Shown: positions 1,160 through 41,425 of the stretch, piece after piece
How positions within the stretch are numbered: position 1 is the stretch's first letter
Layout: every line of letters starts with the position of its first letter
NCBI GenBank assembly: GCA_902603625.1
Contig: CACKVM010000002.1
Location: forward strand, 1 to 64,000
Direction: 5' to 3'
DNA from: an uncultured Pelagibacteraceae bacterium
GTDB taxonomy: Bacteria; Pseudomonadota; Alphaproteobacteria; Pelagibacterales; Pelagibacteraceae
DNA: 64,000 bases
Notes under the pieces: generated by a model
Told to the model about the DNA's origin: nothing
Databases searched by the model: none
The model's input: only the letters and a program-made list of their open reading frames with translations
Translations under genes and position numbers: made by a program

Positions 1160-1743
1160 TTTATATCGTTTAAATATTCCTTAATTTTTTTTATTGGTAA
1201 GCCCATAATTGTATCTGCATCACCATCAATTTTTGAAAATAAATTTCTACCTTCCCCTTCTATTTGATAAACATTGTATGCATATAATTTTTCGTCAGAT
1301 ATTTTAGATAAATATAATTTTAAATCAGTTTCTGAAAAATTTTTCATAACCAATGAAGCTCTATCAGTATAATTCCACAACATAGAGCCATTTTTAGAAA
1401 TACAAACAGAGCTTATTAATAAATGCTCTTTACCGTTTAGTTTTTTTAAGATATCTAAAGCATCCTCCCTATTAATTGGTTTTGATATTAATTCTCCATT
1501 TAAATCTATAACACTATCAGCCCCCAAAACTAGTTTGTTATTTATTTTTAAACTTACTTTATTCGCCTTCAACTCTGCTAAGTTTTTTGATATTAAATCA
1601 GGTGAAGCTTTAATTTTTTTCAAACTTTCTTTTACAGGATCCTCGTCGACATTAGAAGGTTCGACTCTATTAGGAATATTGTGTTTATCTAATATATCTT
1701 TTCTTACCTTGCTTTTTGAGGCAAGAATTATTTCATTTAACAT
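1156..1743 (-). CDS. maf: Maf family nucleotide pyrophosphatase
   Basis: 195 residues with the Maf N-terminal signature LASKSKVRKDIL, the acidic catalytic stretch LGADSVIDL, and the conserved NGKEHLLISSV and DKLYAYN-like segments. Maf proteins hydrolyse non-canonical or modified nucleoside triphosphates to monophosphates and are linked to house-cleaning and septum control. The subtype (Maf or YceF) cannot be fixed by eye. The start lies 11 bases inside the 3' end of the DUF299 gene and the stop overlaps aroE. Confidence 0.9.
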   Translation of the reverse strand: MLNEIILASKSKVRKDILDKHNIPNRVEPSNVDEDPVKESLKKIKASPDLISKNLAELKANKVSLKINNKLVLGADSVIDLNGELISKPINREDALDILKKLNGKEHLLISSVCISKNGSMLWNYTDRASLVMKNFSETDLKLYLSKISDEKLYAYNVYQIEGEGRNLFSKIDGDADTIMGLPIKKIKEYLNDIK

Positions 1744-2560
1744 TGTTCAAATAGATTTCATGCATTTTAATTATTGATGCCGCTGTTTCTTCTACTGACT
1801 TTCTGGTTACATCAATTGAGGGCCATTTATATTTTTTAAATGTTTTTTTCGCCTCATCAATCTCTCTTTTTATATTGACCAGATTAGTATAATTTTTGTT
1901 TTCTGTCTCTCTTAAGGAGTTCATTCGGTTTTTCCTTAACTCTACTAATCTTTCTGGTTCTGTATTAAGTCCAATTACACAAGTTAACTTTGGATTATCT
2001 TTTAATTTTAAAGGTAAAGAATTTTCGTTTACTAGAGGTATATTTGAAGTTTTAAAACCTTTGTTAGCTAAATAGATTGAAGTTGGAGTTTTGCTTGTTC
2101 TGCTTACACCAATTAACACAATATCTGATTTATCTATTTCATTTACTAAATTTCCATCATCATGATTCATGGTAAATTGAATAGCTTCTATTCTTTCATA
2201 ATACTCGTCATTGAGTACATGTTGAGCACTTGGCTCATGAGACGCTTTTTGATTTAGAATTTTTGAAAAATTTAGAATTAAATTTCCTAAAACTCCAAAG
2301 CAAGGAATTTTCTTTTCATTGCTTTTATTAGCCAAATATTTTGCAAGATTATTGTCAACAATTGTATAAAGAATTACCGAATTATTATTTTTTTTTGCCT
2401 TTTCTAAAATTTTTAGAATTTGATTTTCAGTTCTAGTAAAAGAATAAGAATTAACATTATAATTAATATTTTTAAATTGTGCTTTAAGGGCTAAAAATAT
2501 TCTATCTAAAGTTTCACCTGTTGAATCAGAGATTAAATAAATTTGAAATGTATTACTCAT
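1733..2560 (-). CDS. pyruvate,phosphate dikinase / PEP synthase regulatory protein (DUF299)
   Basis: 275 residues. The N-terminal YLISDSTGETLDRIF and the P-loop-like GVSRTSKTPTSIYLANKG are diagnostic of the DUF299/PPSR family, bifunctional ADP-dependent kinase / Pi-dependent pyrophosphorylases that switch PPDK or PEP synthase off and on at a threonine. No ppdK or ppsA is in the window, so the partner is inferred. It is the first gene of the leftward operon and its ATG borders the AT-rich origin-like gap. In Caulobacter and Rickettsia the gene next to the origin opposite hemE belongs to this family. Confidence 0.92.
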   Translation of the reverse strand: MSNTFQIYLISDSTGETLDRIFLALKAQFKNINYNVNSYSFTRTENQILKILEKAKKNNNSVILYTIVDNNLAKYLANKSNEKKIPCFGVLGNLILNFSKILNQKASHEPSAQHVLNDEYYERIEAIQFTMNHDDGNLVNEIDKSDIVLIGVSRTSKTPTSIYLANKGFKTSNIPLVNENSLPLKLKDNPKLTCVIGLNTEPERLVELRKNRMNSLRETENKNYTNLVNIKREIDEAKKTFKKYKWPSIDVTRKSVEETAASIIKMHEIYLNNVK

Positions 2561-2644
2561 GAATAATTTGTTAATAAATTTTTATTATTTTAATAAATTT
2601 TGTATATTTAGATATTGTTTAATTAATGTTGTAAAATAAGAACT

Positions 2645-2653
2645 TTATTCACA
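2645..2653 (+). promoter_or_regulatory. DnaA box 1
   Basis: TTATTCACA, an exact match to the TTATNCACA DnaA consensus, inside the DUF299-hemE gap. Confidence 0.75.
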
Positions 2654-2781
2654 AAAATAAACAAATCTGACTAATAATACACCAAACTTAATAAATTAAA
2701 AAAAAGCTGCATTTTGAACAATATTAATTATCTTAATATCAGATAAACTGTTGATATAATGTTAATAAAATTTAATCAACG

Positions 2782-2790
2782 TTATTCACA
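2782..2790 (+). promoter_or_regulatory. DnaA box 2
   Basis: Second exact TTATTCACA in the same gap and orientation, about 40 bases before the hemE ATG. Besides initiation it could let DnaA influence hemE transcription. Confidence 0.75.
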
Positions 2791-2832
2791 AGCTATATTA
2801 ATACTAAAATTAAATATATTTATTAATTAATT

Positions 2833-3741
2833 ATGTCTCCTATCGAGGAAGTAATTTTAAACAAAAACGTTAATATAAATCCAATATGGATAATGAGACA
2901 AGCAGGTAGGTATTTACCTGAATTTAGAAAAATAAGGAAAGAAAACCCAGATTTTATTAAATTATGCCTTAACGAAAAGTTATCTACTGAGTTAACGCTA
3001 CAACCATTAATTAGGTATGATTTGGATGCAGCAATAATTTTTTCTGATATTTTAATGTTACCTTATGGATTAAATCAAAAAATAGAATTTATAAAAGGAA
3101 CTGGACCTATATTGGGCAACATAAATTTAGAAAATATTTCAAAATTAACTGAAAGTGATTTTATTAAAAAGGTAAATCCAGTTTATAAATTAATAAATTT
3201 GGTAAAAAATAATAAAATTACTAAAAACAAAACCACAATAGGATTTGTTGGAGCTCCATGGACCTTGTTAGTTTATATGTTAAATCAAGAATCACCTAAG
3301 AGTGGCTTAAAAAAAGATTTTTTTGGTGATGAAAATTTAATTAATAACATTTTAGCAATTATAGAAAGATTTTTAAAAATACATATCAAGCATCAAATAA
3401 ATAGTGGTGCACAGATCATTCAAATTTTTGATAGTTGGGCTGGTTTATTAGAAGAAAAAGATTTGCCAAATTATATTTACAAACCAACATCAAACTTAGC
3501 TGAGTATATTAAGTCCTTTAATGTTCCAGTTATATGTTTTCCAAGAAACATTAAAAACTACAAAGAATATTGTGATGTCGTTAATCCAAGTGTCATTTGT
3601 ATTGATTACAATACGGATCCAAAACAAATTTCCAGAAATATTAATATTCCTGTTCAAGGCGGGATGGATCCTAAAATCTTATTAACTGACAAGGAAAACT
3701 TAAAAAAAGAGGTAAATGAAAGAAATAGTATTAGATACTGA
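2833..3741 (+). CDS. hemE: uroporphyrinogen decarboxylase, C-terminally truncated
   Basis: 302 residues against a usual 340-350. HemE converts uroporphyrinogen III to coproporphyrinogen III in haem synthesis. The N-terminal signature MRQAGRYLPEFR, the substrate-binding Asp in IIFSDILMLPYG, the GFVGAPWTLLVYM segment and the late GGMDPKIL motif are intact. After LKKEV the frame turns into NERNSIRY and stops, so the last strand and helix and the conserved NLGHG motif are missing. The final 26 bases overlap dnaQ, which has its own Shine-Dalgarno. A DNA junction about 30 bases before the stop explains this better than a miscalled stop. Activity is doubtful. Confidence 0.85.
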   Translation: MSPIEEVILNKNVNINPIWIMRQAGRYLPEFRKIRKENPDFIKLCLNEKLSTELTLQPLIRYDLDAAIIFSDILMLPYGLNQKIEFIKGTGPILGNINLENISKLTESDFIKKVNPVYKLINLVKNNKITKNKTTIGFVGAPWTLLVYMLNQESPKSGLKKDFFGDENLINNILAIIERFLKIHIKHQINSGAQIIQIFDSWAGLLEEKDLPNYIYKPTSNLAEYIKSFNVPVICFPRNIKNYKEYCDVVNPSVICIDYNTDPKQISRNINIPVQGGMDPKILLTDKENLKKEVNERNSIRY

Positions 3742-6286: not shown

Positions 6287-7660
6287 TTATAATATAAATT
6301 TTGATAAGTCTGTATCTTTAACTAAATTATCAAGATTTTTCTCTATATAATTTTTATCAATTATAATTTTTTCACCTGCTCTATCTGTTGCAGTGAAACT
6401 AATTTCATCTAGAATTTTTTCAATAATAGTATGTAATCTTCTTGCACCAATATTTTCTACAGATGAATTAACTTCAGAAGCAATTTTCGCTATAGCATCT
6501 ATTCCATCATCAGAAAATTTAAGATCAACGTCTTCTGTCTTCAAAAGTGCAATATATTGTTTAATTAAGCTAAAATCTGGTTCCTTTAAAATTCTTTTAA
6601 AATCCTCACTTGTTAAAGCCTCTAACTCAACTCTTATTGGTAATCTACCTTGTAATTCAGGTAATAAGTCAGATGGTTTTGCAAGCTGAAAAGCCCCTGA
6701 AGCAATAAATAAAATATGATCAGTTTTTATTGGACCATACTTTGTGTTCACAGTAGTTCCTTCAATTAAAGGTAACAAATCTCTCTGTACACCTTCTCTA
6801 GAAACGTCACCACCAACCCTATCAGTTCTTCCTGAAATTTTATCTATTTCATCTAAAAACACTATCCCATTATTTTCAGTGGATATTTTCGCTGATTTAA
6901 TAATTTTATCTTGTTCAATTAATTTATCTGACTCATCGTTAATTAAAATTTCATGAGATTCTTTTACTGTCATTTTTCTTTTCTTTTCTTTAGCACCCAT
7001 TGATTTACCAAGCATTTCACCTATATTGATCATTCCAACATTAGCGCCTGGCATTCCTGGTATTTCAAACGATGTAGCGTTATTTCCTGAATCGCTAACT
7101 GCTATTTCTATCTCATTATTATCTAAATCACCATTTCTGAGTCTTTGTCTAAAACTTTCTCTAGTTGCTGCACTTGCTTTTTTACCAACTAGTGCATCCA
7201 AGACTTTTTCCTCTGCAAGCTTTTGAGCCTTTGCCTTTACCTCTTTTCTTTTTTTTACTTTCTCCATTGATATTGCAATTTCTACCAGGTCTCTAACTAT
7301 TTGTTCCACATCTCTTCCAACATAACCAACCTCAGTAAATCTTGTAGCTTCAACTTTCACAAATGGAGCTTCTGCAAGTTTAGATAATCTTCTAGAAATT
7401 TCTGTCTTACCTACTCCTGTTGGTCCAATCATTAAAATATTTTTTGGTAATACCTCATTTTTCATTTCACCTTCTAGAGCTTGTCTTCTCCATCTATTTC
7501 GTAAGGCTACAGCTACAGCTTTTTTAGCTTTATTTTGACCAACTACAAATCTATCTAGTTCAGAAACTATTTCTCTAGGTGATAATGAGCTTACTAATGA
7601 GGCTCCATCTTTCTTGTTTTTATCTTTTGGGTGTAATTGAGTTACGTTTGATTTATCCAT
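6287..7660 (-). CDS. hslU: ATP-dependent protease ATPase subunit HslU
   Basis: 457 residues, an AAA+ unfoldase that feeds the HslV peptidase. Visible are the opening [27 protein letters not shown], Walker [11 protein letters not shown], the pore motif GYVGRDVE, Walker [11 protein letters not shown], and the sensor/arginine region ending [12 protein letters not shown]. The C-terminus ends in DLSKFIL, which inserts into HslV. The ATG overlaps the hslV stop by one base (TAATG), so the pair is translationally coupled with hslV first. Confidence 0.97.
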
Positions 7661-41065: not shown

Positions 41066-41211
41066 GTAAAAAAAGAAAAAAATTGAAAAAGAAAAATCCA
41101 ATAGCGAAATTATTAAGTTCACCAATGTTAAGAAATAAAATAGTAAAAAATAAAAAAAAAATCTATAATAGAAAAAATTCAAGTTGGAAAGTGAGTAAAG
41201 AATATGAATAA
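41062..41211 (+). CDS. ArfA-like ribosome-rescue mini-protein (absent from ORF track)
   Basis: 49 codons from ATG 41062, overlapping the amidotransferase stop as ATGA, to TAA 41209. The product opens MSKKRKKLKKKNPIAKLLSS, continues PMLRNKIVKNKKKIYNRKN, and is very basic. The N-x-I-x-x-L-L-x-x-P-x-x-R-x-x-(V/I)-x-K-N-K-K spacing matches the core of ArfA (DUF331), which recruits RF2 to ribosomes stalled without a stop codon. The glycine-rich GKGSY part of ArfA is not conserved. Gene reality is likely given the overlaps at both ends; the ArfA assignment is moderate. Confidence 0.55.
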   Translation: MSKKRKKLKKKNPIAKLLSSPMLRNKIVKNKKKIYNRKNSSWKVSKEYE

Positions 41212-41425
41212 TAAAATTTTTGAATGGGCAGGGGTGATTACCGCAATATTATACTCATTATTTGTAGCTATGAATATCGGAATCGAATTTTTTGGTTTTT
41301 GTTTGTTACTTATATCTGCAATCTTAATTGGAATCTGGGCTTACAGGGGTGGTCATAGAGGAATATTGTTTTTACAATTCTTTTATGCAACAGCTGGAAT
41401 TATAGGAATGTTTAGGTGGTTTTAA
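41204..41425 (+). CDS. small membrane protein
   Basis: 73 residues with two or three hydrophobic helices: FEWAGVITAILYSLFVAMNIGIEFFGFCLLLISAILIGIWAY, then GILFLQFFYATAGIIGMFRWF. The helix-loop pattern ending in GxxRW is reminiscent of PnuC/YgjV-like small proteins, but I cannot confirm it. Its start overlaps the ArfA-like gene by 8 bases and its end meets the next gene tail to tail. Confidence 0.7.
   Translation: MNNKIFEWAGVITAILYSLFVAMNIGIEFFGFCLLLISAILIGIWAYRGGHRGILFLQFFYATAGIIGMFRWF

Follow-up and report, generated by a model that had tools for sequence, protein, structure and literature searches.

Where does replication of the chromosome begin in SAR11 bacteria? Our literature search found no description of a mapped SAR11 oriC, but a precedent for its location exists within the class, as the origin lies between hemE and the gene for DUF299 in Caulobacter and Rickettsia (PMC1914354). 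The same two genes flank a 272-bp non-coding gap (positions 2561-2832) in the window, i.e., the whole stretch of 64,000 nucleotides that was analysed (contig C2, 1-64000), and an earlier note had proposed this gap as a candidate chromosome origin. Judging from its sequence and from that of its relatives, we consider it very probable that the gap serves as the origin (oriC) of a SAR11 chromosome and that it belongs to the alphaproteobacterial hemE/DUF299 type. The proposal is supported by the conservation of the spacer, its independence from the flanking genes, a cluster of DnaA boxes, an array of DnaA-trio-like triplets and the GC skew of two related genomes.

The gap and its flanking genes

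The left boundary of the gap is the gene of a DUF299/COG1806/PpsR-type kinase-pyrophosphorylase (1733-2560, minus strand; PF03618, 3e-89), whose start codon ends at 2560. The right boundary is hemE (2833-3741, plus strand; PF01208, 7e-70), a frame of 302 amino acids that scores below the TIGR01464 cut-off, and both genes are divergently oriented around the gap. All the named relatives of the flanking protein are Pelagibacteraceae or Pelagibacterales (SAR11). The AT-rich gap had been described with exact coordinates, and its GC content is 14.7%, compared with 28.9% for the whole window; in fact, only 0.1% of the 272-bp stretches of the window are equally AT-rich. No other real intergenic gap of the window is as large: a single stretch exceeds it in length (41066-41421, 356 bp), and this was rejected as a rival large spacer because it contains two small ORFs. 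Rfam and tRNA scans of the gap gave no match.

The surroundings of the locus show one irregularity. The homology of hemE stops near 3714, dnaQ starts at 3716, and coaE is truncated at base 1 of the window. In near relatives, hemE encodes about 333 amino acids and is followed by hemH, and in the relative G003 dnaQ, secB, fxsA, tim44, smr and hslUV are found beyond coaE, on the DUF299 side. Relative to the order in G003, the block that abuts dnaQ in the window (coaE-DUF299-ori-hemE) is inverted. As the genome (788,680 bp in 48 contigs, 67.6% complete) is fragmented and resembles a single-cell assembly, the junction near 3714 probably reflects an inverted amplification chimera rather than a real inversion, and it does not touch the origin itself. 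A search for hemH (ferrochelatase, PF00762) in the window's genome gave no match, which may be due to missing sequence, given the incompleteness of this genome.

DnaA-box sites in the gap

Origins of the hemE/COG1806 type are recognised, among other features, by their position beside hemE and/or COG1806/DUF299, an AT content above the genome average and a cluster of DnaA boxes (TTATNCACA), and these three are found in the gap. Two copies of TTATTCACA, box 1 (2645-2653) and box 2 (2782-2790), lie on the plus strand, in agreement with the two perfect boxes in the same orientation that had been reported, and they are the only matches to TTATNCACA in the 64-kb window. This motif is not enriched across the window as a whole (2 found, 4.0 expected); inside the gap, the two matches compare with 0.03 expected, and only 1 of 2000 dinucleotide shuffles reaches this number.

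The earlier note had described the gap as having few boxes. The count has to be raised to four box-like sites, as it had missed two near-boxes on the minus strand, both in the drifted form TTATTAACA, one proximal to DUF299 (2569-2577) and the other at 2760-2768. When the degenerate motif TTATYMACA is used, the gap contains 4 sites versus 0.09 expected, a number that none of 2000 dinucleotide shuffles attains. There are 106 TTATYMACA sites in the 788,680-bp genome and, among the 100 places listed, no other has four of them within 300 bp, which makes the gap the densest cluster of boxes in this listing.

Conservation of the spacer across SAR11

The length of the spacer is 261-286 bp in all of the 119 DUF299|hemE loci that were read, which comprise the window, 38 diverged species and 80 near relatives (the window and the latter form a near set of 81 sequences). 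Conservation was scored as information content (IC) against an AT-rich background. The best conserved elements of the spacer are the DUF299-proximal box (IC 1.07, compared with a spacer mean of 0.49), box 1 (1.04) and box 2 (1.10), and the site at 2760-2768 reaches 0.79. Box 2 is the most conserved element of all, and positions 2780-2799 are the top 20-bp segment in the diverse set.

The sequence of the sites varies among relatives. Within the near set (window included), box 2 is identical in 75 of the 81 sequences, and box 1 reads TTATTAACA in 67 of them. Most relatives read TGTTAATAA or TGTTTATAA on the plus strand at the DUF299-proximal site, and the variants of box 2 found elsewhere are TTAT[CT][ACT]ACA and TAATNNACA. 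In the diverged set, the sites corresponding to boxes 1 and 2 take forms close to TTATNMACA and TAATNMACA. The box-2 position of G003 has no exact TTATYMACA and reads ATATTCACA. TTATYMACA occurs 2.16 times per spacer in the 38 diverged species versus 0.08 expected, and TTATNAACA occurs 2.50 times versus 0.14 in shuffles, an enrichment of about 18-fold. We regard TTATNAACA as a putative weak DnaA site.

The spacer also persists where one of its usual neighbours is missing. In the sister family (f2), PF03618 (DUF299) had no match in any listed genome (e.g., L231-L237), and five spacers of 275-281 bp were read between maf and hemE. In the sister genus (g2), hemE has a different chromosomal location, and the spacer between DUF299 and a gene that, by its sequence, we take to be rho is 353 bp long and contains three TTATAAACA sites. 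As the spacer is found without DUF299 (maf|hemE) or without hemE (DUF299|rho), it is not just a promoter gap. The gap could still be thought of as containing only the divergent promoters of DUF299 and hemE, with its boxes acting as regulatory DnaA sites, because promoters are expected between divergent genes and DnaA is also a transcription factor in other bacteria. We regard this explanation as very unlikely: spacer length and box-like sites have been kept in the absence of DUF299 and after hemE moved, and the GC skew turns at the gap in two relatives (G003 and G001, see below).

Two further observations concern the genes themselves. DUF299, a regulator of PEP synthase/PPDK, has apparently been lost from the whole sister family f2. 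In g2 (L083, L084, L239, L240), the only hemE found belongs to a different gene cluster, with a hemH-like gene after it, and rho now adjoins the origin; the URO-D score of this hemE is weaker (188-190 bits versus 254-306 in the other genomes searched), and a replacement of hemE is possible.

GC skew in related genomes

A cumulative GC-skew analysis had been suggested as a check. As the 48 contigs of the window's genome cannot be ordered, the skew was computed in relatives, where the outcome was mixed. The genome of G003 (1,199,990 bp) was fully read and has the gap at about 67 kb and dnaA at 130.6 kb. Its raw cumulative GC skew has its minimum at 97.9 kb and its maximum at 675 kb, 8 kb from the antipode of the gap (667 kb). 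A strand-corrected GC3-skew fit places the best origin at 65 kb, or at 60 kb on a coarser grid, i.e., 2-7 kb from the gap, with a wide bootstrap that extends from 30 to 300 kb, falls most often at 60-75 kb and has another mode near 150 kb. In G001, a g2 genome of which one third was sampled, the best fit is at 140 kb and the gap at 141.5 kb. In G011 (sampled), the near-flat optimum of 320-450 kb is broad but compatible with the gap at 336 kb. In G015 (sampled) the origin could not be localised (best fit 90-130 kb versus the gap at 605 kb), although the chromosome arms still differ in the expected direction. A TA3-skew fit did not track the orientation of the GC3 origin. The skew thus supports the gap in G003 and G001, does so weakly in G011 and gives no support in G015. 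To the extent that it could be applied, the refuting criterion set by the earlier note did not overturn the proposal.

These data also bear on whether the origin might be elsewhere, e.g., beside dnaA, which is about 64 kb away in relatives. Many bacteria have their oriC at dnaA, and the raw minimum of G003 falls between the gap and this gene. By contrast, the strand-corrected fit favours 60-65 kb and, in the window's own genome, where dnaA occupies positions 797-2224 of contig C4, the nearest TTATYMACA among the places listed is at 6869. An origin outside the gap is the least probable of the explanations that we considered, even below that of a mere promoter region.

A putative DNA-opening element

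A basal unwinding system (BUS) consists of a DnaA box separated by no more than 16 bp from a series of trinucleotides whose middle base, an adenine on the other strand, is conserved (PMC8287927). A comparable arrangement follows box 2. The linker AGCT (2791-2794, plus strand), whose length of 4 nt fits all the groups shown, leads to a DnaA-trio-like array, ATA TTA ATA CTA AAA TTA (2795-2812, plus strand), with a conserved in-phase NTA that reads 3′-NAT-5′ on the opposite strand. If at least three trios with a conserved middle base are demanded within 16 bp of a DnaA box, the window offers TTATTCACA, 4 nt and ATA TTA ATA CTA. Additionally, the array is located on the 40-bp stretch with the lowest stability in the whole window (2794-2833), a predicted DNA unwinding element with a nearest-neighbour energy of -34.4 kcal/mol versus a mean of -47.2 kcal/mol.

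Counterparts of the array are found in other groups: ATA CTA ATA ATA in many other g1 species, CTA ATA ACA AAA CTA in g2, and CAA CTA CTA CTA CTA in f2 genomes, with CTACTACTACTA in two of the latter. In 46 spacers outside the near set, the first five triplets at linker 4 contain a mean of 3.46 NTA, versus at most 0.41 at out-of-phase linkers and 0.93 (maximum 1.30) in mononucleotide shuffles, figures to be read bearing in mind that the f2 and g2 anchors were placed by hand, that this kind of shuffle is a weak null and that the species are related rather than independent. A permissive single-sequence BUS scan of the window was not significant (22% of shuffles match) and rarely picks the box-2 site; therefore, the claim for trios is a comparative one. 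On this comparative basis, it is likely, with some reserve, that the origin is opened by DnaA-trios.

The weak result of the single-sequence scan would also be expected if the origin did not use trios at all, the NTA array being due to AT-richness or to the hemE promoter and melting taking place elsewhere in the spacer. The lower conservation of the trio columns with respect to the boxes (0.59 versus 1.1) points in the same direction, as does G003, in whose gap the least stable 40-bp stretch (at 66,995) lies 5′ of the box-2 position and is not the genome minimum. Against this reading, the phase of the array and its 4-nt distance have been kept across the genera examined, CTACTACTACTA occurs in f2 and the array persists in g2, where hemE is absent from the locus. 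An origin without trio opening is thus rather unlikely, although it deserves more weight than the alternatives discussed above.

Outside SAR11, inspection by eye of many alphaproteobacterial spacers (L301-L329) revealed a CACAGG-type box followed, on the hemE side, by CTA/CCA/CAA triplets. This combination may represent a class-wide unwinding element; an exact scan for CTA arrays in non-SAR11 loci gave one weak match only.

Control sites and the DnaA protein

Neither the CtrA motif TTAA-N7-TTAA nor GANTC is present in the gap. CtrA sites are a variable rather than a defining feature, being absent from some accepted hemE/COG1806-type origins (PMC1914354), and their absence is expected here, since Pelagibacter is reported to lack a ctrA ortholog (PMC2877005). 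The earlier note was right in seeing no clear CtrA pairs, but the lack of these sites need not mean that the origin itself was streamlined. Regarding CcrM in SAR11, the sentence in PMC3973325 is ambiguous as printed. One possible IHF site, a match to the weak motif WATCAN5WTR, was observed (2744-2756, minus strand), and a stricter form of the motif had no match in the gap. Given the lack of CtrA and GANTC sites and the reported absence of ctrA, a DnaA-centred control would be the simplest reading.

The DnaA encoded on contig C4 (L069) keeps RPRQ and RDHTT, the motifs that contact the DnaA box. Domain IV (PF08299) scores 95-101 bits in this genus versus about 100-112 in sister genera and f2, and in the members of this genus (L069, L071-L078) the residues preceding RDHTT are SN or AN rather than GG or TG. 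A co-variation of the recognition helix with the drift to TTATNAACA was considered and rejected, as both contact motifs are intact and the comparison showed no clear correlation.

The following mechanism can be proposed, from the binding of DnaA and the unwinding of the duplex to initiation and the way in which it is controlled. DnaA would bind box 2 (TTATTCACA, 2782) and, either with less strength or in a cooperative manner, box 1 and the two TTATTAACA sites of the opposite strand. A filament of DnaA would grow from box 2 toward hemE, over the 4-nt linker and onto the single-stranded trios (2795-2812), so that the very weak duplex at 2794-2833 would open and the helicase could be loaded. The timing of initiation would depend mainly on DnaA, as expected for a gap without CtrA or GANTC sites.

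Comparison with known origins

Among 30 loci of other alphaproteobacterial families, DUF299 and hemE are adjacent in 24, and the distance between the motifs of both proteins is 356 bp here versus 411-1151 bp in those 24 loci; therefore, the gap is an ordinary-type origin in compact form. The description of the origin as minimal fits this distance. Like Caulobacter Cori and the oriC of Rickettsia prowazekii, the locus combines the same boundary genes, an AT-rich spacer with DnaA boxes and a GC-skew switch (observed in relatives). By contrast, the SAR11 spacer is shorter and without GANTC, and its DnaA sites include the drifted TTATTAACA. Cori also differs in its five CtrA sites, of which the SAR11 gap has none, and in having G-boxes and W-boxes instead (PMC4468827).

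The reduced origins of Wolbachia, Ehrlichia and Anaplasma resemble the gap in having two to four DnaA boxes and few or no CtrA sites (PMC1914354). The Wolbachia origin has hemE as a boundary (PMC1914354), as here, but a CBS-domain gene takes the place of DUF299 on the other side. Those origins of the three genera whose lengths were read measure at least 385 bp versus the 272 bp of the gap.

With the BUS of Bacillus subtilis oriC and its predicted homologues, the locus shares a DnaA box, a short linker, trinucleotide repeats and very weak DNA. The window trios have T in the middle on the plus strand (A on the trio strand), and f2 relatives carry CTACTACTACTA. However, most of the putative trios of the window are ATA/TTA and not of the GAT type, a GC-rich linker is lacking and a second tandem box is at best degenerate.

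Implications for SAR11

This kind of origin was already known in the class, but in SAR11 the DnaA sites have drifted from their usual form and a putative DNA-opening element has been kept throughout the order. As a tentative model, somewhat short of an even chance, the SAR11 origin may have lost CtrA control, its DnaA sites drifting to a mainly weak class (TTATNAACA) as selection maintained an anchor box and a DnaA-trio array, which would make it a DnaA-only origin. The locus provides a natural example of an alphaproteobacterial origin without CtrA sites, and its box-linker-trio module is short, conserved and directly testable with purified DnaA. Furthermore, the growth of SAR11 in the ocean is estimated from origin-to-terminus coverage and, thus, an origin resolved to the base and across the order would serve as a sequence-defined anchor for such estimates. 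If the model is correct, some of the most abundant cells of the ocean would replicate from a DnaA-only origin.
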